DNA from: Methanoculleus oceani | GTDB lineage: Archaea; Halobacteriota; Methanomicrobia; Methanomicrobiales; Methanoculleaceae | Length of the DNA stretch: 64,000 nt | Direction of reading: 5' to 3' | Assembly: GCF_023702065.1 (NCBI RefSeq) | Contig: NZ_QFDM01000003.1 | Span: forward strand, 434,001 to 498,000 | Shown here: positions 44,201-59,773 of the stretch, in pieces | Layout of the letters: each line of letters starts with the position of its first letter | How positions within the stretch are numbered: the first letter of the stretch is position 1 | Program-made: the position numbers and the translations under genes | Notes under the pieces: model-generated | The model's input: the letters and a program-made list of their open reading frames with translations, nothing else | Told to the model about the DNA's origin: nothing | Databases searched by the model: none

Positions 44201-44785
44201 ATGACCCAGCAGCGGATGGCCCGGATGCTCTTCTCGTTCTACCGGGCGAGCGGGAGACCGACCGCCCGGGAGCGCGCTGCCGATATCGTCTCGACCATCG
44301 ACGACGACAGGATCCGGTACAGCCTGACGGTCCAGCTCGAGCAGGCCATGCCCCAGTCATGGAAGAGCACGGTCTACGGCAGGATCCTCGACTGCCGGGA
44401 CAAGATCCGGAGCGGCGATTACACCACAAAGGACATGGTCACGCTTGACCGGGCGATACGGGCGGCACCCGACCGGGCAAAGCGGGCGACCTACTACACC
44501 GAACTCTACCTCATCTCCAGGAACGCAGGACAGTATGAAGTTGCGGACAGGATGCTGCTCTGTGCGCTCGAAGAAGCACGGATCATCAGGCCGCTCTCGC
44601 GGCGGGCTTTCGTGCTCGGCGATATGGCGTGCCGGATCTACGCAGAGCGCTACGAAGACCGCTCAAGGGAGATCCTCGACATGGCCGTGAGCGAAGCCCT
44701 CAACATCCGCGACGCGACGATCCGGGACGAAGTATACGACGAACTGGATATGTCCATGCGGATCATCCAGGAGCACTGGCTGTGA
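41219..44785 (+). CDS. Very large alpha-helical repeat (solenoid) protein, unknown function
   Basis: 1188 residues, soluble, almost entirely helical, without signal peptide or membrane segments. The sequence repeats loosely every 30-45 residues with hydrophobic helix pairs (for example SDILAGISRDLVQAGVDTGD, ATYYTELYLISRNAGQYEVADRML), like TPR/HEAT-type superhelices, but I do not recognise a named family. Acidic and glutamate-rich. No enzyme motif is visible. A second gene (acylphosphatase) overlaps it by 4 bases, so both are co-transcribed; an acyl-phosphate link is speculation. Codon use is normal. Candidate scaffold protein or repeat sensor. Confidence 0.8.
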   Translation: MDGKLQMKQKINSAISSGDLRELEKVVSDISETQTRKEKKSLYEQMNAALVEAAFEEGQPELLSQLVEPTREEIFALSRRAAALYSESKDETWFSAIFSLVDKLDRKSHQSDILAGISRDLVQAGVDTGDIHYIERGGEAFDKISIRKYRSAILSEIIPLFILYGQKHHNVDIMQYALQMLPEIGDISRQSQLHADVARAIAGSGIESGDINLVISGLSSATEINQKIRRTNSIADIVDAAWKSSLKKEISDVEHIIDSLPDIPEERLTEVLAILTEQLLDRQRDKKQIYTKLLRIDDEKAWAGQTIVLELLKKAERSGERWFLEKAFEFNARGTGETQLPMEEIVLSGIAVVEKSGNPTILLDITPLIDESCDAAKAAQLYRQITDALSRMGDFYHAIEVMKKASSSTQRINAQFFDTSVRLIKEGVRRDEIRLVRENILATLDIDIADSLVHQAVTDFCKEYDFDEVIRHIPAIKELAGSHRAQDHLLLECNTILIERGFVLQKDPSALVDLVGQIGEQALREQAISTIAVEMARIGVARKDRDLLRHATGLTCEIMDQQARAEAMGGIVDQAAVLAVEDGDLDLLHGMRVLSTSLLERDYCLFAMGKVIHGLIMYGIEQLSLQALDEAAQILSQISDPSLQRQLADPLIEGYVRVGSLQAADQLSRGMGRIFDGMMEPFEIALTLLHTSTPREEISIKIASYVDIMLEYTQVYRSPIFAVPMTLFSLEIEGDYERTAMIQRILTFFTSYTKEFDSADPYEVTAYLLEGIEGGAAAPPVLELMYRLFEHTGDVYARYSGMYRIVSAYSVLGNEERAETIIRRLHETIGTISEPSIRAIMLSDLAGLMAGIDHNAARGYLSEAQGTLEFVGQEREAFVRKNLIYAARSLSAVNRQDKDVDWAMEQVGRIEDPVEYVDALAAVFDMVNEPAQRKEILSAMCHTVVSIPSPYVRLSMLFDVAQFAETYGDEEEINELLDGMERTAGYIQIPFITAMTQQRMARMLFSFYRASGRPTARERAADIVSTIDDDRIRYSLTVQLEQAMPQSWKSTVYGRILDCRDKIRSGDYTTKDMVTLDRAIRAAPDRAKRATYYTELYLISRNAGQYEVADRMLLCALEEARIIRPLSRRAFVLGDMACRIYAERYEDRSREILDMAVSEALNIRDATIRDEVYDELDMSMRIIQEHWL

Positions 44786-45069
44786 AGACGATCGAGATCA
44801 GGATCTCGGGAAGGGTGCAGGGCGTCGGGTTTCGTGCGTGTATCAAAAGGATCGCCACCAACCTCGGCGTCGGCGGCGAGGCGATGAACCTCCCCGACGG
44901 GAGGGTGTTCATTACCGCAACCGCCGAACCCGTCATCCTCGACAAGTTCGTCTCCATGCTGTATGGGTGCCCGCGGGTCGTCATCAGGGACATCACCCAG
45001 CAGGAGATCCCCCATGCCGCCTACCCCGAGTTCACCATCCAGCGGGGCAGTTACCAGTACAGCACGTGA
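44782..45069 (+). CDS. Acylphosphatase
   Basis: Hydrolyses acyl-phosphates such as acetyl-phosphate or carbamoyl-phosphate. 95 residues with the family signature SGRVQGVGFRACIKR (catalytic Arg), the catalytic Asn in AMNLPDGRVFI and the ferredoxin-like fold. GTG start overlaps the preceding gene by 4 bases; the last 19 bases overlap the convergent cas1 gene on the other strand. Confidence 0.9.
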   Translation: MKTIEIRISGRVQGVGFRACIKRIATNLGVGGEAMNLPDGRVFITATAEPVILDKFVSMLYGCPRVVIRDITQQEIPHAAYPEFTIQRGSYQYST

Positions 45070-45986
45070 AATTCGGCGTTCGTGAGGAGCGCATCCCGCA
45101 GGATGCGCACCTGGGCATCGATACGGGACTGGTCTATGGAGTCGCGGAGCGCCGCGACAAGCCGGGCCGAGAGGTTCCCGTCAAGATAGCATCTCTTTTC
45201 ACCGCATTCGTAATCCCCGTCCAGGATTTCCTCCCGGGCAAACCGGATGACGGCACGGTCCACCATCGCCGCTTTCTGCGGTTCGATGAGGTCGTGGACG
45301 AAACTCCCGGCCCCCTCGTGAAGCATGCCAAGGTCGGGGTCGAGATGGGCGCCGACCAGTGAGACGCAACAGTTGCCATATAGCATCGCGTATCCGAGCG
45401 AGAACATGGCGTTGACGGGGTCGAGGTAAGGGCGGCTCGTCCTGCGCCGGAACCCGAGTTCCGGCGGGAGTGTGCGGGAGAGGATCTCGTAGTACATATC
45501 GGCGGTCAGGCGGGAGAGCCTCCGCAGATCCTCCATGGTGACCGAGATCGCGAGTTCCTCTCTGGCCTCGTGGAGGAAGTCGAGTTCTCCGGCGTAGAAG
45601 ATGTCGTGCCCGGCGCGGTCGTAGAGTTCCTCGAGGAGGAGGAGCCTCGACTGGAGGCCGGCTCGCGCAAGCGGCTGTGCGAACCGGTGAGGGGCCGCCT
45701 GTTCCTGGGCGAGGCGCACCGCCTCGTCCGGCCGGTAGCCGTAGGGGTAGAGATGTCCGACGGGCGTGCCGTCGATATCGAAGAAGGTGATGGCAGCACC
45801 GGCTTTGAGAAGGTTTGTCACCGCCGAGGTGTGCAGGGTATGGCCGCCGACGACCAGGAGGTGTTTCACTGCCTGGAGGGGGTAACGCCGGGTATCGCTC
45901 CCGTGCGCGATGACCAGTTCCTGTGTCGTCGCCTTGATGTGACCCCCGTAGCCGAAGACGGGAAGCCAGGGTTCGGTCGCTGTCAT
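45051..45986 (-). CDS. Stand-alone Cas1 homologue (catalytic Glu apparently replaced)
   Basis: 311 residues with the whole Cas1 layout: N-terminal beta domain (LVIAHGSDTRRYPLQAVKHLLV, FFDIDGTPVGHLYPYGY) and C-terminal helical integrase domain (LDPVNAMFSLGYAMLYG, LDPDLGMLHEGAG, HDLIEP). Metal-ligand positions: H223 (MLHE) and D232 (HDLIEP) are kept. The gapless alignment LRRLSRLTADMYYEIL with the canonical LRGIEGAAARRYFEAL pattern puts Ser158 where the metal-binding Glu belongs. There is no Cas2, no effector gene and no CRISPR array in the window, so this is a Cas1-solo type. Related to, but not evidently part of, a casposon. Confidence 0.85.
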   Translation of the reverse strand: MTATEPWLPVFGYGGHIKATTQELVIAHGSDTRRYPLQAVKHLLVVGGHTLHTSAVTNLLKAGAAITFFDIDGTPVGHLYPYGYRPDEAVRLAQEQAAPHRFAQPLARAGLQSRLLLLEELYDRAGHDIFYAGELDFLHEAREELAISVTMEDLRRLSRLTADMYYEILSRTLPPELGFRRRTSRPYLDPVNAMFSLGYAMLYGNCCVSLVGAHLDPDLGMLHEGAGSFVHDLIEPQKAAMVDRAVIRFAREEILDGDYECGEKRCYLDGNLSARLVAALRDSIDQSRIDAQVRILRDALLTNAEFHVLYW

Positions 45987-46239: not shown

Positions 46240-49200
46240 ATGGGCATTTTGGGAAAAAGAATCCATTACATTCCGATTGTACTGATAGCCTGCCTGCTGC
46301 TGGCATCACCGGCAGAGGCACTCGACGACCCCGTGCTGCTCTTTAACGGGACGGTTGCACTGACGAACGGCACGTTCGAATGTACGGCCTACAACTCCGA
46401 TAGTTCCTACACAATTCAGAACCGGACCCCGCTCGGGGCACTCCAGGCGGTAGCGGAGCTCGAGAGCTTCACCTACGATGTAACCGACAAGAGGTGGGGC
46501 ACGGATGGAGTCCTCCTGCTCGATAATATCGGCGAATACCAGTTCGTAAAGGGCGGGGCCGAATGGGCCTGCTACGTCAACGACGTCTTCAAGGACGGGT
46601 ACGGCAACCACGACGACGGCCTCAACGTTGTAGCGCTTGCCGAAGGCGATGAGGTCCTCTTCTGCTACGGCAACGACACGACGCAGGAGAACGCAACGGT
46701 GCTGATCCAGATCGAAGTGACTCTGGACGAGTCGCCGGTGACACCGACTCCCACCCCGACCCCGTCGGGCTGGAGCATCACGCTCACGGGCGCGTCGACC
46801 GAGACCGTCGACCAGGACTACTTCGAGGACGGGATCGCCTGCGGGCATGTCGCCACCTACACCGACGAGAACGGTGGTGAGTGGAGCGGCATGCCGCTCT
46901 GGTATCTCATCGGCCTTGTAGACGACGACCAGGACCACGGGTCCGGTGCGTTCAACGACGCTCTCGCCGAGCAGGGTTACTCGATAAAGATCACCTCAGG
47001 CGACGGCTACGAGATCAATTTCCAGAGTGCAAGCGTCGCAAGGAACGACGAGATCATCGTCGCAAACACCCTCAACGGCACCGAACTCCCCGAGACCATC
47101 GGCGAGAGCGAGAAACCCTGCTGGCCGCTCCAGCTCATCGGTCCCGACGTGAGCGCCGGCCAGAAGATCGGCAGCATTGCCTCGATCGAGCTCGTCGGAC
47201 TTCCCGAGCCCTCCGGCGACTGGGAAATCACGCTCGCGGGCGCGTTCAACCGGACGCTCACGCAGGCGGAGTTTGAGGACGGGCTCTCATGCCACGACGA
47301 GAGTTATACCGACGACAGCGATCGGGTCTGGACCGGCATACCTCTCTGGTATCTGGTGGCCGTCGTCGACGATATGGAGGCCGATGACCACTGGACGCTG
47401 AACGATACGCGGGCGGCCGCCGGCTACACCGTGCGGGTGACCGCGAGCGACGGGTTTAGCGCTACGTTCAATAGCGCCGATATCGCCCGGAGCGATGCGT
47501 ACCTTGTCGCGGACAAAATGAACGCAACACCGCTTTCCGCAGATAACGGTGCGCCGTTGAAGCTCGTCGGCTCCGCCCTGACGTCCGGCAGCCAGAGAAT
47601 CGGCAGCATCGCGTCGATCACCCTGGAGGGGCTGCCTGACGAGAGCACCGATTCCGAGTGGACGCTTGCTCTCGAAGGGCCGAAGGTTACGGACCTTCTC
47701 ACGAAGGAAGAGTTCGAAGCGTGCGGCTACCACACAAAGACCTACAACGACGGGGTCAGCACCTGGACCGGCGTCCCGTTAAAGGTCCTCTGCGGCTGGG
47801 TTGACGACGACGTCATGCACGGCTCCGGAGCGTTCAACACCGCTCTCGCCCAGGCAGGCTACACGGTGATCGTCTCCTCCGGCGGGGAGAACCCCTACAG
47901 CAAGGAGTTCACCAGCCAGGAGATCATGGCGAGCCCGCTCGACTATATCGTCGCGAGCAAGGTCAACGGCACCGCGATCACCGGAGGCGCCTACCCGCTC
48001 CGCCTCGTCGGCGAGGGGGCAACCGGGAGCAAGAGTGTCGGGAACGTCCAGAAGATCCAGCTCGTCGACTTCCAGGAGCCGACGGAACCCCCGTCCATCC
48101 GCATCGTTCTGTACGCCTCCGATGGCGTGACCGTCGTCGAAGAGACGACGAAGACCATCACGTGGATGGAAGGGAACCTGGATATCTACGGAGCTCCGGA
48201 CGGCGTCTGGCTCAGGTTCCAGGGCCCCACCTTCGATCCGGATGACCTCTGGAATCCGGAGGAGGACAAAAACCCCGGCAAGGTCGACGAAGTCGTGAAA
48301 GGGACCTCGATCCGTGACCTCTGCGACCTCGTAGGCGGGGTTCAGGAGGGAGGCGAGGTAAAACTCGTCGCATCCGACGGTTACGAGGCCAAACTGAACT
48401 ACACCAATCTCTATACCCCGCTCGACCGGCAGGGGGAGGCTATCGTCGCCTGGTGGACGGAGCGGCAGGGTTACGCACCCGCATACAGTGACGGACCGCG
48501 CCTCTTCTTCAACGCACCCGACGGCATCTTCGGCGCCGACGACATGCGGGTATGCCTCGCCCAACCGTACTGGCACTACTTCGATTCCGGTGGCGTCCAT
48601 TATCCCTCGGCGGGAGGCGTCTCCAACAGGAACATCGCGACCATCAAGATCTATCAGGCGCCGCGGGAGGACTGGAACCTCGTCCTGACGGGCGCCATCA
48701 CCCAGACCATCACCCGGTCATACTTCGAGTCGGGCAAAGCCTGCGCTATGGCCGGGCACGGCGCGACGTGGACCGACGACCAGGACCAGGTCTGGTCGGG
48801 GATGCCGCTCTGGCTCCTCTGTGGTTATGTCGACGACACCAACAGCCACGATTACGGAACGGATCCCTTCAATGATGACCTCGCGGACGCAGGCTACAAC
48901 GTGACCGTCATCGACTACGGTCCGGACGGCACCAGGGGTACCGACGATGACTTCTCCGCCACCTTCAACAGTTCGTTTGTTGCGCGGAACAACAACATCA
49001 TCGTCGCCGACGAGATCGACGGCGCACCGCTGCCGGCCGACGGCGATAAACCGTCCTGGCCGCTGAAACTCGTCGGCTCCGCCCTGACGTCCAACAAGCA
49101 GAAGGTCGGGAGCATCGATGAGATCGTGCTGACCGGGGTGCCGGTAGTATCCGACGCGACGATCTCCCTTGAGACGGGCTGGAACTTTGTCTCGACCCCG

Positions 49201-49668
49201 AAGCGGCTTGCCGACGGCAGCAACACCTTCGCGATCTTTGACGCGGTCGATACCGCCGATCACTCAATCCTGCTCTATGACGGGCTGGAGTCCGAATGGA
49301 AGGCGGTGGGTTCAACCGACTCCTTCCAGCCGCTCGACGCGGTCTGGGTCTACACGAACGCGGCCTGCACCGTCTCCCTGACTTACGCCCCCGGTGAGCC
49401 CGAACTCCCGCCCGCGAAGAGCCTCGGCAAGGGCTGGAACGCGATCGGCTTCACGGACACCGAAGCCGAATCTGCCGCAAACACCCTGCTCTCCCTCGGA
49501 GACCACTGGACCACCCTGATCGGATTCGACGCAGAGGGGCAGGAGTACGGGGTATCGATCATCCGCGGCGCCAGCGGCAGCCACGGCGAAGAAAACACGA
49601 TGCAGCCCACGCAGGGTTACTGGATCTACATGACCGAAGCAGACACGCTCGCTGCCATCAGCGCCTGA
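46240..49668 (+). CDS. Large exported protein: DUF4430-like domain plus five molybdopterin-binding-fold repeats
   Basis: 1142 residues. Signal peptide to about 28 (LLASPAEA). Residues 30-165 look like DUF4430 (TPLGALQAVAE, GGAEWACYVNDVF, ALAEGDEVLFCYGND). A Thr/Pro linker follows, then five repeats beginning near 176, 326, 471, 616 and 810. Each resembles the sulfite-oxidase molybdopterin-binding fold: W-x-I-T-L-x-G start, WSGMPLWYL/WTGIPLWYL, F-N-D/T-x-L-A, DGY, ARND-x-I-V-A, WPL-x-LVG, IGSI. The fourth repeat is the long form also seen in the proteins at 50359 and 54137. The C-terminus (974-1142) has two Trp/Gly-rich repeats (TGWNFVS, KGWNAIGF). No cysteine at the catalytic SUOX position, so binding rather than catalysis is expected. 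Confidence 0.8.
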   Translation: MGILGKRIHYIPIVLIACLLLASPAEALDDPVLLFNGTVALTNGTFECTAYNSDSSYTIQNRTPLGALQAVAELESFTYDVTDKRWGTDGVLLLDNIGEYQFVKGGAEWACYVNDVFKDGYGNHDDGLNVVALAEGDEVLFCYGNDTTQENATVLIQIEVTLDESPVTPTPTPTPSGWSITLTGASTETVDQDYFEDGIACGHVATYTDENGGEWSGMPLWYLIGLVDDDQDHGSGAFNDALAEQGYSIKITSGDGYEINFQSASVARNDEIIVANTLNGTELPETIGESEKPCWPLQLIGPDVSAGQKIGSIASIELVGLPEPSGDWEITLAGAFNRTLTQAEFEDGLSCHDESYTDDSDRVWTGIPLWYLVAVVDDMEADDHWTLNDTRAAAGYTVRVTASDGFSATFNSADIARSDAYLVADKMNATPLSADNGAPLKLVGSALTSGSQRIGSIASITLEGLPDESTDSEWTLALEGPKVTDLLTKEEFEACGYHTKTYNDGVSTWTGVPLKVLCGWVDDDVMHGSGAFNTALAQAGYTVIVSSGGENPYSKEFTSQEIMASPLDYIVASKVNGTAITGGAYPLRLVGEGATGSKSVGNVQKIQLVDFQEPTEPPSIRIVLYASDGVTVVEETTKTITWMEGNLDIYGAPDGVWLRFQGPTFDPDDLWNPEEDKNPGKVDEVVKGTSIRDLCDLVGGVQEGGEVKLVASDGYEAKLNYTNLYTPLDRQGEAIVAWWTERQGYAPAYSDGPRLFFNAPDGIFGADDMRVCLAQPYWHYFDSGGVHYPSAGGVSNRNIATIKIYQAPREDWNLVLTGAITQTITRSYFESGKACAMAGHGATWTDDQDQVWSGMPLWLLCGYVDDTNSHDYGTDPFNDDLADAGYNVTVIDYGPDGTRGTDDDFSATFNSSFVARNNNIIVADEIDGAPLPADGDKPSWPLKLVGSALTSNKQKVGSIDEIVLTGVPVVSDATISLETGWNFVSTPKRLADGSNTFAIFDAVDTADHSILLYDGLESEWKAVGSTDSFQPLDAVWVYTNAACTVSLTYAPGEPELPPAKSLGKGWNAIGFTDTEAESAANTLLSLGDHWTTLIGFDAEGQEYGVSIIRGASGSHGEENTMQPTQGYWIYMTEADTLAAISA

Positions 49669-49678
49669 AGGTGATAGA

Positions 49679-50323
49679 GTGAAGATGCAACATGGTATCG
49701 TACTGATCCTTCTCCTCGGGCTCGTCGCCGGTGCGGCGGCTGCCGGGGACACCCCCCCCGTCTTCCCTCAGGAGTTCTACGGGGGCGTGACGATCGGCGG
49801 ATCGCCTGCGCCAGCCGGGACCGTGATCACGGCGACGATAGGGGAGACGGAGTGCGGCTCTATCCAGACAGTGGAGTCAGGAAAATACGGCGATCCTGAC
49901 CGGCGCCTCGGGGGCCGCCTTATCGTGACGGGGACCGCAGACCAGGTGGGAGAGACGATCACCTTTTCCGTCAACGGAGTGGCTGCACCGCAAACCTCAG
50001 TCTTTACATCAGAAGCGATAACGGCCCTCGATCTGAGCGTTCCCGGGAGCGGCGGATCCGGCGGCGGTGGATCCGGCGGCGGATCCGGCGGTTCCTCCAA
50101 AGACCCCGGCTCGCAGCTCACCTATGACCCCGACGCAGAGGCAACAACCCCGCCTGCGACGACCGCCGCCACGGCTACCCCGGACGTGAAGCCGACAGCG
50201 ATAGCGGAGGCACAGGAGACCGCAACCCAGGGGCCTGCCACTGCACTCCCCACGTGGGCGCTGGCCCTCATCGTCGTGCTGGCCGTCGCACTTGCGGCAT
50301 CCCTCCTCATGAGGAGGAAGTAA
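49679..50323 (+). CDS. Membrane-anchored surface protein with Gly/Ser and Thr-rich stalk
   Basis: 214 residues: signal peptide (LLLGLVAGAAAAG), a small beta domain (EFYGGVTIGGSPAPAGTVI ... ITFSVNGVAA) common in exported methanogen proteins, a Gly/Ser linker (about 120-140), a Thr/Pro/Ala-rich stalk, and one C-terminal membrane helix followed by RRK (LPTWALALIVVLAVALAASL). So the domain sits outside and is held by the C-terminus. Start: GTG 49679 or ATG 49685; the latter has the better distance to GGTGA. Ten bases after the 1142-residue gene. Confidence 0.75.
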   Translation: MKMQHGIVLILLLGLVAGAAAAGDTPPVFPQEFYGGVTIGGSPAPAGTVITATIGETECGSIQTVESGKYGDPDRRLGGRLIVTGTADQVGETITFSVNGVAAPQTSVFTSEAITALDLSVPGSGGSGGGGSGGGSGGSSKDPGSQLTYDPDAEATTPPATTAATATPDVKPTAIAEAQETATQGPATALPTWALALIVVLAVALAASLLMRRK

Positions 50324-50358
50324 CCTCCCCCTTTTTCACTAATGTCAGGGAGCAACGC

Positions 50359-52923
50359 ATGGCCTTTACGCACCAGCGGGGTACGGCCTCGCACCCAATC
50401 ATCCTCGTGCTCTGCATACTCCTGGTACTGGCAGTCCCGGTAGCCGCAGCCCCGACGACGGAACTGCATGTCGTAAAACTTGCAGCCGACGGCGTTACCG
50501 TCCTCGACGAGACGACGGTCGACTACACATGGCTTGAGGGGAACCTCCCGGTCCGGGGAGACGGCGAGACCCACTACTACCTCCAGGGGCCGGTCTTTGA
50601 GTTGGAGTGGGAGAGGGTCCATCCCGGGGAACCCTACGATCCCTGGAACCCCGGGGAGGATGTCAATGTCAAAGAGAAGGATATGGGCGCGGTGAAGGGG
50701 ACGGACCTCAAGGAGATCTGCAACCTTGTCGGCGGGATGGCCGAGGAGGAGACCGTCAGGGTCCGGGCGGCGGACGGGATGTCGAGGCTGTTCCCGTACA
50801 GGAACGTCTACGAACCGGAACCGCGGCAGGGGCCGATTGTCATCACCTGGTACAGGGCCGACGAGGGGTATGTCCCCGATTACTACAGCGGGATGCGCCT
50901 TGTCTTCTTCGCGGATACATCGACCAACCCCGATGGGCTCCACGCATTCGGCGTCTCGGATATGCGTGAGTGCTTCGATCCCGACTACTGGTACTTCTTC
51001 CAGCCGGGCCTTCCCACCACCACAGGCCTCTCCGTGCAGTACGTGAGTGAGATCGTCATTTACAGCGACGAAGAGCCGACCGGGAGCATTCACATCACAT
51101 CAACACCTTCCGGGGCCGCTGTCTACGTCGACGACGAAGAGACCGGTGACGTGACCCCCTGCACCCTCTCCGGCATCGAGACCGGGAGCCATGCTGTCCG
51201 GGTCGAGACGGAGGGGTTCGCCCCACCGGATGAGGAATGGGTCAATGTTGTGGCGAACGCCGTTCTTGAGGTCGAGTTCAACCTGAGCCCCGAGACCGGG
51301 ACCATCGCCGTCTCCTCGGTCCCGACCAACGCGAGTATCGTCCTCGACGGGAATGTGACGGGGCTTTTCACCGACACAACCCTGGATGCGGTCCCGGTCG
51401 GGGAGCATACCATCGAACTCGAGATGCCGGGCTACCGGAACGCCACCCGCACCGTCGTCGTTGAGAAGGAGGAGTGTAGTATCCTCGATGTGGTGCTCTT
51501 TTCTGACAAGATCACCCCCGCTGAACCCGCATCCGGGATCGGGAGCGTCGCCATCTCTTCGGTTCCGACGAACGCGAGCATCTTCCTTGACGGGAACGCT
51601 ACGGGACTTCGAACAGACGCAACTCTTGACCTGGTTCCCGTCGGCGAACATACGATCGAACTCAGGATACCGGGCTACCGGAACGCCACCCGCACCGTCG
51701 TCGTTGAGAAGGAGGAGTGCAGCATTCTCGATGTGGTGCTCTCTCAGGCAGGCGGTGAAACCGGGGCGAACGCCTCCACAGGCCATAACGGGACCCCGGC
51801 CGGGCACCGGGCACCCGTGCCGAAAAATCCCCTGGAGACGTTCATCGCGGCAGTTCTCAATTTTTTGAGCGTGATGTTTCCATTCTTCGGGACAGAGGGA
51901 GACCTGCCGGGCACGCCCGGGCAGAAGAGCACCCCGGCCCCCGGCGGAGATACCGCACCCCCCGTGCCGACCGGCACCCCCCTGCTCCCTGCACCGACGC
52001 CGGACGACACCTGGATTACGAAAAACCACTCCGGCGGGATCTACGTCGAGTCGTACCCTCCGGGTATGACGATCGTCGTCGACAACAGGAGGCTGGTATG
52101 GCAGACCCCTCATATCGTCTACGGCCTCCGTGAAGGTCTGCACAGCATCAGAGTCGAGGAGAGCGATCCTGATCGCAGCGGCGAAGACTCGGGCTACCGG
52201 TTTGAGACCGTTCAGACCTGGGTCTATCCGGATTCGATTGCCACGGTCATGCTCGACGGGGTGACGCCCTCGTACAAAAAGACGATCCAGGTCGATTCAG
52301 AGGCCTACCTGGGTGAGAAATTCACGGTGAACGGGCTTTTCCCTGCCGGCACCATCCCGGATGATGCTGAGATAGAAGGGGCAACGTCCTGGATTACAGT
52401 CTTCCGGAACGGGACCTACCTGTCGTACAGGACGCCCCACTCCATTGAGGCCGGCAAGACGTTTACGGTTGAGCCCTGGAGCGCCGATACCGTCTCGATC
52501 GGGATCTGCTCAAGTCCCGAAGGTGCTGCGGCCTTCATCGACGGATTCCCTACCGGGGAGTTTACCCCGTGCCGGATAGAAGGCCTCTCCCCCGGGCAGC
52601 ACCGGATCCAGGTATCGAAGCCCGGATACCTTCCTGCCGGAGACGTCATCACGATACCGGAGGGCTGCAGTACCGGCGGCGTCATCACCTGTACACTCCG
52701 GGAGTATACCCACGGGGACCTCCTTGTCGAGAGCACAATCCCGGACGCGAGGATCTACCTCTATGGCCGGTACACCGGGGAGAAGACACCCCACACCTTC
52801 TCCGGGATGAGCATCGGCACCCACGAGGTCCGGGTCGTCTCTGAGAACGACTCCACGACGGTTGAGGACGTGCTGGTGAATCCAGGAGAGACAACCCGGT
52901 GCCTGGTGACCCTGAAGGAGTGA
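50359..52923 (+). CDS. Large exported protein: molybdopterin-fold domain plus PEGA repeats
   Basis: 854 residues from the ATG at 50359 (GGGAG upstream). Signal peptide about 10-33. Residues about 34-235 are the long molybdopterin-binding-fold domain (TTELHVVKLAADGVTVLDETTVDYTWLEGN-like; GAVKGTDLKEICNLVGG; GYVPDYYSGMRLVFFAD), paralogous to 54137-54976. Then at least five PEGA-type carbohydrate- or surface-binding repeats (GSIHITSTPSGAAVYVDDEETG, SVPTNASIVLDGNVTG, SVPTNASIFLDGNATG, CSSPEGAAAFIDGFPTG, STIPDARIYLYGRYTG). Repeats two and three share nearly identical DNA, so that duplication is recent. No C-terminal membrane anchor visible. Confidence 0.8.
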   Translation: MAFTHQRGTASHPIILVLCILLVLAVPVAAAPTTELHVVKLAADGVTVLDETTVDYTWLEGNLPVRGDGETHYYLQGPVFELEWERVHPGEPYDPWNPGEDVNVKEKDMGAVKGTDLKEICNLVGGMAEEETVRVRAADGMSRLFPYRNVYEPEPRQGPIVITWYRADEGYVPDYYSGMRLVFFADTSTNPDGLHAFGVSDMRECFDPDYWYFFQPGLPTTTGLSVQYVSEIVIYSDEEPTGSIHITSTPSGAAVYVDDEETGDVTPCTLSGIETGSHAVRVETEGFAPPDEEWVNVVANAVLEVEFNLSPETGTIAVSSVPTNASIVLDGNVTGLFTDTTLDAVPVGEHTIELEMPGYRNATRTVVVEKEECSILDVVLFSDKITPAEPASGIGSVAISSVPTNASIFLDGNATGLRTDATLDLVPVGEHTIELRIPGYRNATRTVVVEKEECSILDVVLSQAGGETGANASTGHNGTPAGHRAPVPKNPLETFIAAVLNFLSVMFPFFGTEGDLPGTPGQKSTPAPGGDTAPPVPTGTPLLPAPTPDDTWITKNHSGGIYVESYPPGMTIVVDNRRLVWQTPHIVYGLREGLHSIRVEESDPDRSGEDSGYRFETVQTWVYPDSIATVMLDGVTPSYKKTIQVDSEAYLGEKFTVNGLFPAGTIPDDAEIEGATSWITVFRNGTYLSYRTPHSIEAGKTFTVEPWSADTVSIGICSSPEGAAAFIDGFPTGEFTPCRIEGLSPGQHRIQVSKPGYLPAGDVITIPEGCSTGGVITCTLREYTHGDLLVESTIPDARIYLYGRYTGEKTPHTFSGMSIGTHEVRVVSENDSTTVEDVLVNPGETTRCLVTLKE
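51427..51742 (+). repeat. Duplicated PEGA-repeat segment
   Basis: A block of about 50 bases beginning CCGGGCTACCGGAACGCC occurs at 51427 and again at 51670, identical except at the very end. Period 243 bases = 81 codons. Flanking sequence of the two units is similar but diverged, so this part was homogenised or recently duplicated. Confidence 0.8.
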
Positions 52924-52928
52924 GTGAC

Positions 52929-54140
52929 GTGAAGTATCACCCGGAACTCCCTGTCATGGCGGCGGTTGCCGTGCTGCTCGCCCTCCTCCTCCCGGTTGCC
53001 GATGCCGCCGTCGTATGGGGTCCGTACGTCACGAACACTACCGGGAACTCGACGGTAGTCACCTGGAAGTCGATTGAAGAAGCGGAGTGGTGGGTCGATT
53101 ACGCTCCCGAGGGCGGCGAGACGTACCGCATACCCTCTTCCGGGGCGGGGCCCATCCACCACGTGCTGCTCACGGGGCTTACCCCGGCGACCACCTACCG
53201 CTACCGGGTCGGCACCGGGAACGAGACGACAGGGGACTGCAGGTTCCGGACGTTCGGGGACGGGGCGTTTACCTGCATCGTATACGGCGACACCCGGGCG
53301 CAGAAGCCTTTCTTCACCCAGACTGAGCGACACGGTCTGGTGGCGGAGAGGATAGCGGCAGAGGCGGATATCCTCTTCGTGGTCCACACCGGCGATTTCG
53401 TCTGCGAGGAGGAGGAGTGGGACGAGTTCTTCGCGGTCGCAGGACCGGTGCTCCGGAACACGACCCTGGTGCCGGTGGCAGGCAACCATGACGGGTCAAC
53501 GGAGACGTTCTCCGCCGTCTTCGACCTTCCCCCGTACTACTCTTTCGATGCCGGCAGCCTCCACGTGACCGTTCTCGACAGCAACGACCGGGCATGGGCG
53601 GACATGGTCACCCAGACCGCATGGCTCGAGAGCGACCTCGCATCCCCCCTGCCCCGGAAGATCGTGGCGTTCCACCACCCCCCGTTCAGCTCCGACCGTA
53701 AGCATCCCGGAGGAGACCGGGCGATCCGGGCCGAGTGGTGCGATATCCTCTCGCGCAGCGGCGTGGACGCAGTCTTCAGTGCGCACACCCATGCCTACGA
53801 GCGCTACCGGGCAGGCGGGACGGAGTACCTTGTCGTCGGGTGCGGCGGGGCGCCGTTCTATGCGCTCGCGGAGGAGAAGCCTGAAGGATACCTTGCGGGC
53901 CACAGGCAGACCCTCGGTTACGTTCGGGTCATCGTCAGCCCGGAATCGATCGATCTTGAGATGGTAGCGGTTGCAGAGGTCACAGAGGACGGCGAGGTGA
54001 CGATGTGTCCGGCAGGGACCGTCATCGACGCCGTCCGCCTCCCGGCAGATGCCGCACCGCCGCCGGAAGCGCCTGTCGGGCGGTGGGTTGTGCCGGCAGC
54101 CCTCCTCGGCGGTGCGGCGCTATCCAGATTACGGAGATGA
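52929..54140 (+). CDS. Exported purple-acid-phosphatase-like metallophosphoesterase
   Basis: 403 residues from GTG 52929, with AAGGAG upstream. Signal peptide (MAAVAVLLALLLPVADA), a fibronectin-like domain with the purple acid phosphatase pattern (WGPYVTNTTGNSTVVTWKS, TTYRYRVGTG), then a metallophosphatase domain with all metal-ligand motifs: YGDTR, HTGDFV, GNHD, FHHPPF and SAHTHAYERY. The C-terminus has a weak membrane segment ending SRLRR. Predicted outside activity on phosphomonoesters. Within the surface cluster, overlapping the next gene by 4 bases (ATGA). Confidence 0.85.
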   Translation: MKYHPELPVMAAVAVLLALLLPVADAAVVWGPYVTNTTGNSTVVTWKSIEEAEWWVDYAPEGGETYRIPSSGAGPIHHVLLTGLTPATTYRYRVGTGNETTGDCRFRTFGDGAFTCIVYGDTRAQKPFFTQTERHGLVAERIAAEADILFVVHTGDFVCEEEEWDEFFAVAGPVLRNTTLVPVAGNHDGSTETFSAVFDLPPYYSFDAGSLHVTVLDSNDRAWADMVTQTAWLESDLASPLPRKIVAFHHPPFSSDRKHPGGDRAIRAEWCDILSRSGVDAVFSAHTHAYERYRAGGTEYLVVGCGGAPFYALAEEKPEGYLAGHRQTLGYVRVIVSPESIDLEMVAVAEVTEDGEVTMCPAGTVIDAVRLPADAAPPPEAPVGRWVVPAALLGGAALSRLRR

Positions 54141-54976
54141 AGATTATGCGTACACGATTACCATGGGTGCTGCTCGCGCTCCTCTGCGTGAGCATGCTGG
54201 CGGTTGCCGCCGCGGCGGCACCGACAACCGAACTGCACGTCGTAAAGATTGCACCGGATGGGCAGACGATCCTCGAGGAGACGACGGTCGACTACCGCTG
54301 GATGGAGGCGAACCTCCCGGTCCTCGGGGACGGCGTGACCCACTACTACCACCAGGGCCCGGTCTTCGAGGGGGACAAGTGGGACCCTGAGGAGACGACG
54401 AACTTCAAGGACAGGGGAGCCGTGAAGGGAACGGATGTCCGCGACCTCGCCGAACTGGTCGGCGGCGTCGAACCCGGGGACGAGATCATGGTCCGGGCGG
54501 CCGACGGCTACCATGTCGAGTTTGCCTACCAGAACGTTTACACGCCCGATCCCCGCCAGGGACCCATAGGGATCTGCTGGTACAACGGCGCCGAGACAGG
54601 GGCAGGCGAGCGGCAGGGGTGCGGCTATGTCCCCGACTACTACACCGGGATGCGCCTCGTCTTCTTTGCCGACAACTCGACAAACGCAGATGGCCTCCAC
54701 ATCTACGGGAACTGGGACATGCATGAGACGCTCCCGGAGTCCGCCCAGCACTTCTACGACCTCTACCCCTCAACCGGCGGTCTCACGGTGAAGTGGATCG
54801 ATGAGGTCCGTGTCTACACCGGCGGGTTCCACGGCGAGCGGGGGGCCCTTGCGGGATCTCTCGACGACCCGGCAGCAGAGGCGACGACGGACCCGGCGAA
54901 AGCCCCGCTCTCTCTCGTAGCGACGCTCGCTGCGGCACTCGGGGCAGCGACGCTCCGTGCCCGGAGAGGAGCATGA
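54137..54976 (+). CDS. Exported molybdopterin-fold domain protein (paralogue)
   Basis: 279 residues: signal peptide (about 8-28), then the long molybdopterin-binding-fold domain (TTELHVVKIAPDG, GAVKGTDVRDLAELVGG, GYVPDYYTGMRLVFFADNS), then a short hydrophobic C-terminus followed by RARRGA. Clearly related to residues 34-235 of the protein at 50359-52923 and to the fourth repeat of the 1142-residue protein. Starts at ATG 54137, overlapping the phosphatase gene by 4 bases, and overlaps the next gene by 4 bases. Confidence 0.78.
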   Translation: MKIMRTRLPWVLLALLCVSMLAVAAAAAPTTELHVVKIAPDGQTILEETTVDYRWMEANLPVLGDGVTHYYHQGPVFEGDKWDPEETTNFKDRGAVKGTDVRDLAELVGGVEPGDEIMVRAADGYHVEFAYQNVYTPDPRQGPIGICWYNGAETGAGERQGCGYVPDYYTGMRLVFFADNSTNADGLHIYGNWDMHETLPESAQHFYDLYPSTGGLTVKWIDEVRVYTGGFHGERGALAGSLDDPAAEATTDPAKAPLSLVATLAAALGAATLRARRGA

Positions 54977-55542
54977 TCCCGGTGCACCGGACCTACCCGA
55001 TCCTTCTTGCCGTGGTACTGATCGGGGCCGCGACATTCGTGTCCGGATGTCTCGGCCCGACTGCCGCCGCCGACGAGGTGGCATGGAACCTGACGCTTGC
55101 CGGGAACCCGGAGACGGTGCTCACGCTCGCCGAGATCAGGGCGCTGCCTGCCGTCGAGGGCTACGGTTACTCGGTTTCGACGGTCGGGATAAAGTATGGC
55201 CCGAACCGCTACCGAGGCGTTCTTCTCTCCGATCTCGTCGAGACAGCGGGCGGAGCCGGCGCGGACGACCTGATCTACGTCTCCGCAGAGGACGGCTACC
55301 TCTGGGTCTTCGATACGGCTCAGTTGAGAGGGGAAGAGTTCTTCACCTTCGACGAGAACCTCCGGGAGATTCCCGCACCGCCGCTCAATGTGATTCTGGC
55401 TTACGACCGGGATGGAGAACCCCTGGCATACGAAGAGGGCGGGCCGCTCCGCCTCGTCGTCATCACCGAGAGCCCCGACGTCATCACCGAAGGTAGCCCC
55501 TGGGTGAAATGGGTCGACCGGATAGAGGTCCGTGGAAAATGA
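54973..55542 (+). CDS. Lipoprotein with a minimal molybdopterin-binding-fold domain
   Basis: 189 residues. Signal with lipobox (FVSGC), so lipid-anchored outside the membrane. The remainder is one compact sulfite-oxidase-like domain: WNLTLAGNPETVLTLAEIRALP, YRGVLLSDLVETAGG, DGYLWVFDTAQL, EGGPLRLVVITE, WVKWVDRIEV. The catalytic cysteine of the true enzymes is absent. It overlaps both neighbours by 4 bases (ATGA). Confidence 0.78.
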   Translation: MIPVHRTYPILLAVVLIGAATFVSGCLGPTAAADEVAWNLTLAGNPETVLTLAEIRALPAVEGYGYSVSTVGIKYGPNRYRGVLLSDLVETAGGAGADDLIYVSAEDGYLWVFDTAQLRGEEFFTFDENLREIPAPPLNVILAYDRDGEPLAYEEGGPLRLVVITESPDVITEGSPWVKWVDRIEVRGK

Positions 55543-56576
55543 CCCGGCAGGCAGTGATCCTCGCAATGTTCGCCCTCGTTGTTCTGGCGACGGCCGCAGG
55601 CTGTACCGATACGGAGCCGGAGCGCACCGTCCTCACGGTGGTTCCGGCCGGGAGCCTTCTTCACCCGCTCGAGGAGATAGAGGCCGCCTTCGAGAGCCGG
55701 CACCCGGATATCGATGTCCGGCTCGAAGGGCACGGGAGCATTCAGGCTGTTCGGCAGGTGACGGACCTCGGGAGGGAGATCGATGTCGTCGCGGTTGCGG
55801 ACGCCTCGCTGATTCCGGATATGATGTACGTCCCGATGACCGAGGGGGGCGAGAATTATACCGACTGGTATGTCCCCTTCGCCGGAAACGAGATCGTGAT
55901 CGCTTACACCGACCGGAGCGTCGGGGCGAAAGAAATAACGGCGGAGAACTGGTACCGGGTCCTGGCCCGCCCGGACGTGCGAGTCGGGTTCTCAAACCCC
56001 ATGCTCGACGCCTGCGGCTACCGCGCACTCATGGTGACGGCGCTTGGCGAGGAGTATTACGGTGAGCCAGACCTTTTTGAAGCCATCATCGGGAGCTCCT
56101 TCGATCCGCCGCTCGCACCTGTCCGCGCGGGCGGGGTAACGATGATCGCCCTGCCGGAATTGATGAGACCTGCTGACGAGAAGGTCGCCATCCGGGACGG
56201 GAGTATCTACCTCCTCTCGCTCCTGGATGCCGGGGGGATCGACTACGCCTTCGAATACCGGAGTGTCGCCGAAGAGCATGGGCTCCGGTGGATCGACCTC
56301 CCACCCGGGATAGACCTCAGCTCCGCAGAGCGAACCGATGATTACCGGAAGGTGCGCGTGACCCTCGGATTCCAGCGATTCGGGTCAATCGGAAGCGAAC
56401 GGATCGGCCAGCCGATCGTCTACGCCGTCACCGTGCCTCGCAATGCACCCCACCCGGAAGAAGCGCGGATGTTTGTGGACTTTGTTCTGGCCGCGTTCTA
56501 TGAAGAGCGGCCAGGATGGCCCACTCCTATGGGACAGGAACCCGGGGCTGCCACGGTGTACCATGCTACGGACTGA
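55539..56576 (+). CDS. Tungstate/molybdate-binding lipoprotein (WtpA/ModA-like)
   Basis: 345 residues from ATG 55539. Lipobox ATAAGC, then a periplasmic-binding-protein fold very like archaeal WtpA: LTVVPAGSLLHPLEEIEAAF, GHGSIQAVRQVTDLGREIDVVAVAD, YTDWYVPFAGNEIVIAYTD, WYRVLARPDVRVGFSNPMLDACGYRALMV, YAFEYRSVAEEHGL. Residues corresponding to the octahedral oxyanion ligands (Asp in LDACG, Glu in AFEYRS) are present. No permease or ATPase gene follows, so it may use transporters encoded elsewhere or act as sensor. Last gene of the surface cluster; a T tract follows. Confidence 0.85.
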   Translation: MTRQAVILAMFALVVLATAAGCTDTEPERTVLTVVPAGSLLHPLEEIEAAFESRHPDIDVRLEGHGSIQAVRQVTDLGREIDVVAVADASLIPDMMYVPMTEGGENYTDWYVPFAGNEIVIAYTDRSVGAKEITAENWYRVLARPDVRVGFSNPMLDACGYRALMVTALGEEYYGEPDLFEAIIGSSFDPPLAPVRAGGVTMIALPELMRPADEKVAIRDGSIYLLSLLDAGGIDYAFEYRSVAEEHGLRWIDLPPGIDLSSAERTDDYRKVRVTLGFQRFGSIGSERIGQPIVYAVTVPRNAPHPEEARMFVDFVLAAFYEERPGWPTPMGQEPGAATVYHATD

Positions 56577-56588: not shown

Positions 56589-56751
56589 GGCACCGCCACC
56601 CATGTAGAGGTAGCGTATGCCCGGCGGTGCGGCTCCAGGCATGTCATCGGACGGCCGCCGGGAGTACCGAAACCGGATAACCGATGCCGGGCAATATGCG
56701 GCCGGGAACGGAGGATACTCTCTCCGGCCGGCGAAACACCGATGGGATACT

Positions 56752-58041
56752 ATGTTCTGGAACAGAGCGATGGAGACGATCCGGCCTGATGAACTCGCGG
56801 ATCTTCAACTGAAGCGGCTGAAATGGTCGCTGCATCAGGCGCAGAAAGTTGGACTATACCAGAGAAAACTGAAGGAAGCGGGCGTCTCGCCGGATGATAT
56901 CAAGACGCTCGACGACGTGCAGAAACTTCCCTTCACCTACAAAAAAGAACTCCAGGCCGGATACCCGTTCGGCCTCTTTGCTGTCCCCTTGAAGGAAATT
57001 GTCCGGATTCACACCACCTCCGGCACGACGGGCAAGCCGACCGTCGTCGGCTACACCCGGCAGGACCTGGAGAACTGGTCGGAACTGATCGCGCGGAACA
57101 TGTCGATGGTCGGCCTTGGAGAGGATGATATCTTTCAGAACGCGGTCAACTACGGCCTCTTCACCGGAGGGCTCGGGTTCCACTACGGCGCCGAGAAGAT
57201 CGGGATGACCGTGATCCCGAGCGCGACCGGAAACACCCGCCGCCAGATCGAGATGATCGAGGACTTCGGGGTGACCGCCATCCACTGCACGCCAAGCTAC
57301 GCCCTCCACCTCGCCGAGGTGGCCGAGTCGATGGGAAAGACGCTGGACACCCTCAAGACCGGGATATTCGGGGCGGAACCCTGGTCGGAGAGCATGCGGA
57401 CGGAGCTCGAACGGCGTCTCGGCGTGACGGCCTACGACAGTTACGGGCTCTCGGAGATGTACGGCCCGGGGGTGGCGTTCGAGTGCCCGGAGAGGAACGG
57501 GCTCCACATCTGGCACGACTGTTACCTCACGGAGATCATCGATCCCGAGACGGGGGAGAGGCTCGCTCCCGGGGAGCGGGGCGAACTCGTCATCACGCCG
57601 CTCGTCAAGGAGGCCCTGCCGCTCGTCCGCTACCGCACCGGCGACGTGACCCGGCTGATGGACGACGAATGCGCCTGCGGGCGCGGGGTGAAGATCGAGC
57701 GGATCACGGGCCGGAGCGACGACATGCTGGTCATCCGCGGGATCAACGTCTTCCCGTCGCAGATCGAACACGTGCTGCGCGCCCTCCCGGAGGTCGGGGA
57801 GCAGTTCATCGTATATATCGATCGCGTCAAACATCTTGATGAGATGACGATTGAAGTGGAGATGAACAGAGCGGGGTTCTCCGGAGAACTTCAGGATCTC
57901 GCCCGTATGCAGAAGAAGATTACCAACGAGCTCCACAATACGCTCGGCCTCAGGACCGCGGTGAAACTGGTGGAGCCGGGGTCGCTGCCCCGGTTCGAGG
58001 GGAAGGCAAAGCGGGTCATCGACCGGCGGGGGGCGATCTGA
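56752..58041 (+). CDS. paaK: Phenylacetate-CoA ligase family protein (first copy)
   Basis: AMP-forming acyl-CoA ligase for aryl acids such as phenylacetate, indoleacetate or related 2-oxoacid products. 429 residues from ATG 56752: ATP-binding TTSGTTGKPTVVGYT (about 88-102), YDSYGLSEMYGPGVAFECPE, ITGRSDDMLVIRGINVFPSQIEHVL and the C-terminal lysine region LPRFEGKAKRVIDRR. It overlaps the second ligase gene by 1 base. A start further upstream is possible but not conserved. Confidence 0.9.
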   Translation: MFWNRAMETIRPDELADLQLKRLKWSLHQAQKVGLYQRKLKEAGVSPDDIKTLDDVQKLPFTYKKELQAGYPFGLFAVPLKEIVRIHTTSGTTGKPTVVGYTRQDLENWSELIARNMSMVGLGEDDIFQNAVNYGLFTGGLGFHYGAEKIGMTVIPSATGNTRRQIEMIEDFGVTAIHCTPSYALHLAEVAESMGKTLDTLKTGIFGAEPWSESMRTELERRLGVTAYDSYGLSEMYGPGVAFECPERNGLHIWHDCYLTEIIDPETGERLAPGERGELVITPLVKEALPLVRYRTGDVTRLMDDECACGRGVKIERITGRSDDMLVIRGINVFPSQIEHVLRALPEVGEQFIVYIDRVKHLDEMTIEVEMNRAGFSGELQDLARMQKKITNELHNTLGLRTAVKLVEPGSLPRFEGKAKRVIDRRGAI

Positions 58042-59342
58042 TGGCGCCCTGGAACCCGCGGATGGAGGAGATGCCGCCCGAGGAGTTGCGGCGGCTCCAG
58101 TTCAAACTCGTAAAATCCCTGGTATACCGGCTCTACAGCTTCAACGACTTCTACCGGCGCCGGATGAAGGAGCAGGAGGTTCACCCCGACGACATCAGGA
58201 CGCTTGAGGATGTCGCGAAACTCCCGTTCATGTACAAGGCGGACCTGCGGGACGGCTACCCGGACAGGATCTTCTCCGCCGAACAGAACGAACTGGTCCG
58301 GTACCATGTCTCCTCCGGAACGACGGGGAAGCCGACGGTCGTCGGGTATACGGAGCGCGATATCGAGAACTGGAGCGAGTCCCTGGCGCGGGGGTTCTCT
58401 TCCTGCGGTCTCGGACGGGGGGACGTCATACAGGTGAGTTACGGCTACGGCCTCTTCACCGGCGGCCTCGGCGCCCACTACGGTGCAGAACGCGTCGGAG
58501 CAACCGTCCTTCCCACAAGCGTCGGGAACACGGAGCGGCAGATCGAGCTCATGCAGGACCTCCACGTCACCGCCATCGCCTGCACCCCCTCCTACCTCCT
58601 CCATATGGGCGAGGTGGCGGAGAAGATGGGCGTCTCGATCAGGAACGATACCGACCTTCGCATGGGCTTCCTCGGTGCCGAACCCTGGTCTGAGCAGATG
58701 CGGACCCGGATAGAGGACTGGCTCGGGATCCGCGCCTACGACATCTACGGAACGAGCGAACTCTCCGGCCCGATGTTCACCGAGTGCACCGAGCAGCAGG
58801 GGATCCACGTCTGGGGAGACCTCGCGCTCGTGGAGATCGTTGACCCCGCGACCGGCGAGGTGCTAGAGGCCGGTGAACAGGGCGAGCTGACCATCACCAT
58901 GCTGCAGAAAGAAGCCCTCCCCATGATACGTTACCGGATCGGCGACCTCACCGCCGTCGAGGAGGGGGCCTGCGCCTGCGGCCGGACCCATCCGCGCATC
59001 GGCCGGATCCGGGGACGGGTGGACGACATGCTGATCATCCGGGGCATCAACGTCTTCCCGTCGCAGGTAGAGCATGTGCTGCTTGAGATCCCGCAGGTCG
59101 GCAGGCATTTCCAGATAGTCGTCGACCGGAAAGGTGCACTCGATTCGATGCTCGTGCGGGTGGAGGTGAGCGAGGAGGCGTTCTCCGACAAGATCACCGA
59201 ACTCATGGTGATCAAGAGGGCGGTGGAGCACCGCCTGCGGAGTTCGCTGAACGTGAGCGTGGATGTCGAACTGGTCGAACCGGGCTCCCTGCCGCGGTTT
59301 GAAGGCAAGTCGAAGAAGGTTGTTGACAGGAGGTCATTGTAA
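58041..59342 (+). CDS. paaK: Phenylacetate-CoA ligase family protein (second copy)
   Basis: 433-residue paralogue of the gene before it, with the same motifs (HVSSGTTGKPTVVGYT, YDIYGTSELSGPMFTECTE, RGRVDDMLIIRGINVFPSQVEHVL, LPRFEGKSKKVVDRR). It keeps all catalytic segments, so both enzymes should be active; differing substrate specificity is likely but not shown. TGATG overlaps on both sides couple it to its neighbours. Confidence 0.9.
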   Translation: MAPWNPRMEEMPPEELRRLQFKLVKSLVYRLYSFNDFYRRRMKEQEVHPDDIRTLEDVAKLPFMYKADLRDGYPDRIFSAEQNELVRYHVSSGTTGKPTVVGYTERDIENWSESLARGFSSCGLGRGDVIQVSYGYGLFTGGLGAHYGAERVGATVLPTSVGNTERQIELMQDLHVTAIACTPSYLLHMGEVAEKMGVSIRNDTDLRMGFLGAEPWSEQMRTRIEDWLGIRAYDIYGTSELSGPMFTECTEQQGIHVWGDLALVEIVDPATGEVLEAGEQGELTITMLQKEALPMIRYRIGDLTAVEEGACACGRTHPRIGRIRGRVDDMLIIRGINVFPSQVEHVLLEIPQVGRHFQIVVDRKGALDSMLVRVEVSEEAFSDKITELMVIKRAVEHRLRSSLNVSVDVELVEPGSLPRFEGKSKKVVDRRSL

Positions 59343-59773
59343 TGGAGAAGTCGTATATCGTCAAACAGATCTCGATCTTTTCGGAGAACCGCCCGGGGCG
59401 CCTCGCGGCGGTCGCATGTGCGTTGCGGGATGCCGGGATCAACATATTTGCGTTCAGTATCGCCGAGGCGGACGGGTTCGGGGTGGTCCGCGCGCTCGTC
59501 GACCGGCCGGACGACGCCCACCGAACGCTGACCGATCTCGGGTTCCGCGTCTCGTTCACCGACGTCATCGGCGTGAAGATGCGCGACGAGCCCGGCGGCC
59601 TCTCGGATATCGCATCGATCCTCGGGGATGCCGGGATCAACATCGAGTATGCCTACGCCTACTCGGGGAAGGATGGGGCGGTCCTGATCCTGCGCGTGGA
59701 TCAGGTCGAGGACGCCATCAGGCAGATCCTTGGTCGCGGCGGAGAACTCCTTAAAGCGTCTCTCTCGCGGTAA
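59342..59773 (+). CDS. ACT-domain protein (two ACT domains)
   Basis: 143 residues with two tandem ACT domains (1-70: VKQISIFSENRPGRLAAVACALRDAGINIFAF; 72-140: FTDVIGVKMRDEPGGLSDIASILGDAGINIEYAY). ACT domains bind amino acids; this arrangement next to PaaK genes is common in methanogens and may sense an aromatic amino acid controlling the ligases. It overlaps the second ligase by 1 base. Confidence 0.9.
   Translation: MEKSYIVKQISIFSENRPGRLAAVACALRDAGINIFAFSIAEADGFGVVRALVDRPDDAHRTLTDLGFRVSFTDVIGVKMRDEPGGLSDIASILGDAGINIEYAYAYSGKDGAVLILRVDQVEDAIRQILGRGGELLKASLSR

Follow-up and report, generated by a model that had tools for sequence, protein, structure and literature searches.

Seven exported archaeal genes link cysteine-less proteins of sulfite-oxidase-like fold to a WtpA-type lipoprotein, a possible outer stage of tungstate/molybdate uptake

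A 64-kb window of the Methanoculleus oceani genome (the whole stretch analysed, 64,000 nucleotides of contig NZ_QFDM01000003.1, in which all coordinates are counted) contains a cluster of seven genes, named g1 to g7 in order, that spans positions 46240–56576. In this cluster, surface proteins with a predicted sulfite-oxidase-type (SUOX) fold that is devoid of the catalytic cysteine accompany a WtpA-type tungstate/molybdate-binding lipoprotein, g7. Methanogens and anaerobic alkane oxidisers need tungsten and molybdenum, and we know of no account of how these archaea collect the two metals outside the ABC transporter. On balance, we lean towards the cluster being the capture-and-relay stage, outside the cytoplasm, of WtpABC-type uptake of tungstate/molybdate. 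Acquisition of tungsten and molybdenum is probably the function of the whole cluster, and g7 can be predicted with good confidence to feed WtpBC as its substrate-binding protein.

The list of open reading frames (ORFs) placed all seven genes on the + strand, and all of them are exported, with a signal or lipoprotein peptide recognized by eye at 7/7 N-termini. The junctions measure, in order, 16, 35, and 5 bases, followed by three 4-base ATGA overlaps. A preliminary description, made from the sequence alone, had reported such a co-directional exported set with four tight junctions, which are the three overlaps and the 5-base gap. Eight SUOX-fold domains were found in four proteins: five in g1 and one each in g3, g5, and g6. 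Pfam searches, profile comparisons, and models bore out the same count in that description, and its “five repeats” in the 1142-residue protein g1 hold once the long form is added to the four minimal repeats. The other long forms are in g3 and g5, and the minimal form is in lipoprotein g6, as had been proposed; the purple-acid-phosphatase-like enzyme embedded in the cluster was recovered by Pfam as g4, with Metallophos and Pur_ac_phosph_N domains. Two features had been missed, namely the N-terminal transcobalamin-beta/DUF4430-like domain of g1 and six PEGA stretches in g3.

The WtpA-like nature ascribed to the last gene was confirmed by the score of g7, which lies above the cut-off of the WtpA profile TIGR03730 (330.5 vs 242.75 bits) and below that of the narrower NF003196/PRK04168 (306.3 vs 355 bits). 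The tungstate selectivity of WtpA is set by a tungsten-binding aspartate, Pf Asp160/Af Asp153 (PMC10221389), and this residue is present as D157 in 72/72 cluster WtpAs. On the phylogenetic tree, canonical WtpA proteins, including that of A. fulgidus, were separated from all cluster WtpAs by a branch with a support of 100/99.

No permease gene lies within the g1–g7 cluster. The earlier statement that an ABC permease is lacking is correct for the window; it does not extend to the genome, in which WtpBC is encoded elsewhere, or to relatives with WtpBC-type genes beside the cluster. The window genome carries tupABC and wtpABC in tandem (C2:745–751 kb; locus L145, C2:745000–753000), which by their sequences are two complete tungsten/molybdenum transporters. 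In relatives, WtpBC-type genes were located directly after g7 (L096, L098, L100, L103, L104, L117, L119, L121, L124, L125, L128, L129, L130, L137, L139, and L090) or were divergent from, convergent with, or upstream of the cluster (L088, L110, L114, L116, L127, and L138), and in the Methanocalculus-type loci the canonical wtpA operon is divergent beside g1. WtpB was the best NCBIfam match of each tested permease, at 221–309 bits, under the equivalog cut-off of 340; since WtpB of the window genome itself reaches 234 bits, this cut-off is strict for the group. The neighbouring ATPases of the relatives matched WtpC best. There is a strong case that in the window genus g7 partners wtpBC in trans, and that in Methanoregulaceae, as in some bacterial and anaerobic methanotroph (ANME)-type genomes, its partner is a neighbouring BC pair dedicated to it.

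The fate of canonical wtpA was followed in 25 genomes of the genus with a strong WtpB match, 14 with g6 and 11 without it; separately, WtpA and a strong match to WtpB were both absent from G381, G273, and G441 of the same genus. Canonical wtpA was absent in six of the 14 g6 carriers (G002, G006, G009, G015, G021, and G023), its frame was broken in G008, and it was cut by a contig end in G024. Ten of the 11 genomes without g6 kept wtpA. In the six genomes, wtpB and wtpC were retained, at 78–85% identity to those of the window genome, and the cluster binder g7 is the only WtpA-family gene. In four of them wtpBC immediately follows tupABC or its remains, without the intervening wtpA, and in the other two it stands alone; wtpA relics were detected in G021 (27 amino acids, 78%, E 1.5e-7) and G006 (39 amino acids, 56%, E 3.9e-6). 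The genomes that lost wtpA were scattered on the g7 tree and did not form one group, so several independent losses are likely, as read from the g7 tree and not from a species tree. Most simply, g7 would serve WtpBC and thereby permit the loss of canonical wtpA. Since g7 is the sole remaining partner of the tungsten transporter in several species, an outer stage of tungsten and molybdenum capture is the most likely role of the cluster, and such a stage, if real, would explain how some methanogens can lose wtpA yet keep wtpBC.

Several points weigh against this capture-and-relay reading. Half of the cluster-carrying genomes of the genus with WtpB retain wtpA, and G440 (82% complete) has lost it with no cluster detected. 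The association between wtpA loss and the cluster is modest, with one-sided Fisher p values, all uncorrected for descent, of 0.038, of 0.059 without G008, and of 0.029 for genomes at least 94% complete. In addition, the second carboxylate ligand, Af Glu218, is replaced by Ser in g7. We dropped the idea that this was a cluster-specific ligand loss because the canonical WtpAs of the same methanogens also lack Glu218 and have Ser or Ala there. The g7 of the window and the canonical WtpAs of these methanogens share a new Glu nearby, in (W/F)EYRSVA; ANME-type g7 proteins have Gln or Gly at this place.

The comparison with relatives, in which genes were called as six-frame ORFs, demonstrated that the cluster gene order is common to the other genomes of the genus that carry it, flanked upstream by genes for Cas1 and an acylphosphatase and downstream by a pair of phenylacetate-CoA-ligase-like genes. 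The seven-gene order noted in the preliminary description was thus found again within the genus; outside it, the flanks differ and the cluster is rearranged, and the triplet of long form, g6, and g7 is retained. Of the stand-alone g6 genes found in genome contigs, 68/68 have a long-form protein directly upstream and 64/68 have g7 directly downstream, one of the four exceptions being at a contig end. The cluster is conserved and is not a chance grouping. g6 was present in 78/232 genomes of the order and in 44/393 drawn from the phylum, and the cluster carriers comprised Methanomicrobiales, metagenome-assembled genomes of Methanosarcinales, Candidatus Argoarchaeum, Methanophagales, an ANME-2c bin, and one Peptococcaceae contig. 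The latter, from Peptococcaceae bacterium SCADC1_2_3 (L139, 4012–14278), encodes an SLH-bearing SUOX-like protein, long forms, g6, g7, WtpB, and WtpC, and has 44% G+C and bacterial-looking flanks. SLH domains are a bacterial surface anchor; together with the flanks, their presence makes a transfer to bacteria likely.

The SUOX-like fold in g1, g3, g5, and g6 is supported by profile searches and structural models. PF00174 (cut-off 24) was passed by g1 (63.9 bits) and g6 (50.8 bits), and hhalign comparison with canonical SUOX-like proteins of the same order gave probabilities of 98.1% for g6 and 96.1% for the g1 repeats. A phmmer search with one g1 repeat returned weak sulfite-oxidase matches only. 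The long form had no match in the Pfam search or in a search against PDB sequences; its hhalign probability was 98.1% against g6 and 51.6% against SUOX directly, and it is tied to the SUOX fold by profile comparison and by the structural model. The AlphaFold2 model of g5, built on an alignment of 52 sequences, had a mean predicted local distance difference test score (pLDDT) of 83.8. Structural comparison of this model by VIA gave Z scores of 11.8 with PruR and 11.3 with chicken sulfite oxidase, unrelated chains beginning at 5.3, and Foldseek gave E-values of 0.0025 and weaker. The model of g1 (16 sequences) was poorer overall, with a pLDDT of 68 and a predicted template modelling score (pTM) of 0.34; its repeat at amino acids 326–466 nonetheless matched chicken sulfite oxidase 3hbg with Z 16.0 (2.5 Å, 128 residues) and PruR 7kom with Z 14.3. 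The fold first assigned from the sequence is thus upheld by structure prediction or profile comparison for a repeat, the long form, and g6. No Pfam match to the C-terminal dimerisation domain of the sulfite oxidase family was found in g1, g3, g5, or g6. The number of domains in g1 varies. Amino acids 31–146 of g1 matched the human transcobalamin beta domain (VIA Z 9.2, 2.3 Å, 88 residues), and Pfam detected DUF4430 (PF14478) in 2/16 g1 orthologues. In the C-terminal region of g1 (amino acids 975–1142, about 49162–49665) the model was poor, with a pLDDT mostly below 50.

In the alignment, the molybdenum-ligating cysteine of SUOX was found in none of the eight domains, in agreement with its earlier reported absence. 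The corresponding column of g6 is occupied by I/M/V/F/S (37 sequences), and the long-form strand reads THYYHQGP and contains no Cys. Because this ligand is absent, the SUOX-like family is, as judged from its sequences, non-catalytic in the SUOX sense. The g1-type repeats keep a Cys in 128/151 cases, placed before the strand and followed by a conserved His and Asp, a placement that rests partly on predicted secondary structure, because the repeats have a gap there in the hhalign alignment. A catalytic role for this Cys was set aside since the catalytic cysteine stands at the end of a strand that this Cys precedes. In the repeats, a metal site might be formed by the conserved C-H-D and DD positions. 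g6 and the long form retain the DGY and VKW motifs in the same columns as canonical SUOX, and the g1-type repeats retain DG(Y/F) but not the VKW tryptophan. Pocket-type residues are kept across all SUOX-like domains.

The phosphoesterase g4 also appears to have an intact site. Residues D121, D156, N186, H187, H249, H250, H286, and H288 were kept in at least 90% of 51 aligned sequences, the metal-site residues of the five purple acid phosphatase/calcineurin-like phosphoesterase motifs were all present, and in nine loci the phosphoesterase was fused to a long-form domain. The conserved site and the fusions suggest, speculatively, capture of a phosphate ester or, alternatively, removal of phosphate from the site.

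We propose that the anchored proteins g1, g3, and g5 may bind molybdenum or tungsten species at the cell surface and that lipoprotein g6 may bind the ligand and relay it beside the membrane to g7. The phosphoesterase g4 might, more speculatively, free or process the captured compound, and g7 would take up the metal anion for import by WtpBC. The surface module for these metals suggested in the preliminary description is supported in part, as regards molybdenum/tungsten handling, by the WtpBC linkage and by the wtpA loss in six genomes; the part assigned to its SUOX-like domains is putative, and their own binding of molybdenum or tungsten species is suggested only tentatively. In sulfidic water, molybdate is converted to thiomolybdate and becomes poorly available (PMC10390477). 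A more specific proposal, that the SUOX-like surface domains are receptors for forms beyond the reach of ordinary oxyanion binders (such as thiotungstate/thiomolybdate or released tungstopterin) and that a dedicated WtpA then receives the metal from them, is rather unlikely.

Three other explanations were weighed. The cluster might scavenge cofactor: the SUOX-like domains would bind released tungsto- or molybdopterin, the phosphoesterase would cleave its phosphate, and the metal would pass to g7. This would accord with a fold that normally holds metallopterin, with the DGY and VKW motifs of g6 and the long form, with the kept site residues of g4 and its fusions to long-form domains, and with the resemblance of the g1 N-terminal domain to a cobalamin binder. 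However, the metal-binding cysteine is gone, the VKW tryptophan is absent from the minimal repeats, and, with a MoaA-type gene (PF06463) of its own, the window genome has no need to import pterin for cofactor synthesis; we regard cofactor scavenging as unlikely. The preliminary description also offered a structural surface array built by reuse of the SUOX fold; in the version weighed here, the array is structural or adhesive and g7 is a mere neighbour or a recruited structural lipoprotein. Such an array would fit the variable domain number of g1 and the features common in surface proteins, namely repeats, PEGA and SLH domains, C-terminal anchors, and Ser/Gly linkers; against this, g6–g7 adjacency is near universal, the ligand Asp is retained in g7, wtpA was lost while wtpBC was kept, and the pocket-type residues are conserved in all domains. 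A structural array is less likely than molybdenum/tungsten handling, and its probability is low. Metal-independent pterin sensing or handling, as in the bacterial periplasmic PruR, is quite improbable even though PruR, with Z 11.8 for g5 and 14.3 for a repeat, ranks first or nearly so among the structural matches and likewise lacks the cysteine (PMC13259868), because the neighbours of g6 in 64/68 loci are the long form and WtpA and not a DcpA-type or kinase receptor.

Compared with known systems, the transporter part of the capture-and-relay stage is already described. What is new is that cysteine-less surface proteins of SUOX fold are coupled to it; no description of this was found in the open-licence literature, and among the matches listed for cofactor scavenging none was relevant. 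g7 is a WtpA by profile and selectivity Asp, and the permeases and ATPases of relatives match WtpB and WtpC best; unlike canonical WtpABC, which is without such partners, g7 forms a subfamily apart, has no adjacent permease in the window, and is always tied to SUOX-like surface proteins. TupABC, the second tungsten system beside wtpABC in the window genome, has an unrelated substrate-binding family and is unlinked to the cluster. PruR, which is cysteine-less and binds tetrahydropterin, is a precedent for the SUOX-like proteins described here (PMC13259868). The likeness lies in the SUOX fold, export, and missing cysteine, whereas PruR is linked to DcpA or kinase receptors and cyclic di-GMP and the cluster proteins to WtpA, and the latter are multi-domain and anchored, unlike PruR. 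The DGY Tyr and VKW Trp of g6 and the long form, located by SUOX columns, are candidate counterparts of the pterin-binding PruR Tyr104/Trp160. The sulfite oxidase family (SUOX, SorA/SorT, MsrP/YedY) shares the fold of the molybdenum cofactor domain (Z 16.0 for a repeat); the cluster domains differ in lacking the molybdenum-ligating cysteine, in having no Pfam match beyond PF00174, and in forming tandem surface repeats. Of the transcobalamin beta domain/DUF4430 group, g1 has the one domain, and no cobalamin-binding alpha domain was seen in it. A widespread gene set thus couples a cysteine-less metallopterin fold to WtpA and makes the question of metal collection testable. If the two-stage surface system for metal acquisition is real, it is without a described counterpart, and the finding would be more than a transporter variant if a receptor function for metal or metallopterin were established for the SUOX-like domains.

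Table 1. Genes and domains of the g1–g7 cluster, with positions in the 64-kb window (aa, amino acids)
Feature	Position	Strand	Evidence
g1, 1142-aa exported protein: DUF4430/transcobalamin-beta-like domain, three minimal SUOX repeats, long form, fourth minimal repeat, C-terminal region	46240..49668	+	PF00174 63.9 bits; model; VIA
g1 aa 31-146, transcobalamin beta-domain-like (DUF4430)	46330..46677	+	VIA; PF14478 in some orthologues
g1 R1, aa 178-319, minimal SUOX-like	46771..47196	+	Repeat alignment
g1 R2, aa 326-466, minimal SUOX-like	47215..47637	+	VIA vs 3hbg and 7kom
g1 R3, aa 474-610, minimal SUOX-like	47659..48069	+	Pfam; repeat alignment
g1 long-form SUOX-like domain, aa 618-807	48091..48660	+	Alignment with g3 N-terminal domain and g5
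g1 R5, aa 812-966, minimal SUOX-like	48673..49137	+	Repeat alignment
g2, exported, Gly/Ser-rich linker and C-terminal anchor	49685..50323	+	Pfam: no match; orthologues in most same-genus clusters
g3, long-form SUOX-like domain, then PEGA domains	50359..52923	+	PEGA 249.9 bits, 6 stretches
g3 long-form SUOX-like domain, about aa 21-232	50419..51054	+	Alignment with other long forms
g4, purple-acid-phosphatase-like metallophosphoesterase	52929..54140	+	PF00149 54 bits; PF16656 38.9 bits
g5, single long-form SUOX-like domain and C-terminal anchor	54137..54976	+	Model; VIA
g6, SUOX-like lipoprotein without catalytic cysteine, one minimal domain	54973..55542	+	PF00174 50.8 bits; hhalign 98.1%
g7, WtpA-type tungstate/molybdate-binding lipoprotein, separate subfamily	55539..56576	+	TIGR03730 330.5 bits; tree

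Upstream of the cluster, positions 41219–44785 encode a 1188-amino-acid repeat-rich protein, for which the Pfam search gave no significant match. The Cas1 gene (45051–45986, - strand; PF01867, 172 bits) is divergent from g1, and its stop end overlaps an acylphosphatase-like ORF, a position kept in genomes of the same genus; no Cas2 was seen beside it in the ORF list, although no search was aimed at Cas2 or a CRISPR array. Downstream, positions 56617–59773 contain two phenylacetate-CoA-ligase-like genes together with an ACT-type gene, all co-directional with g7 and kept at this place in the genus only.

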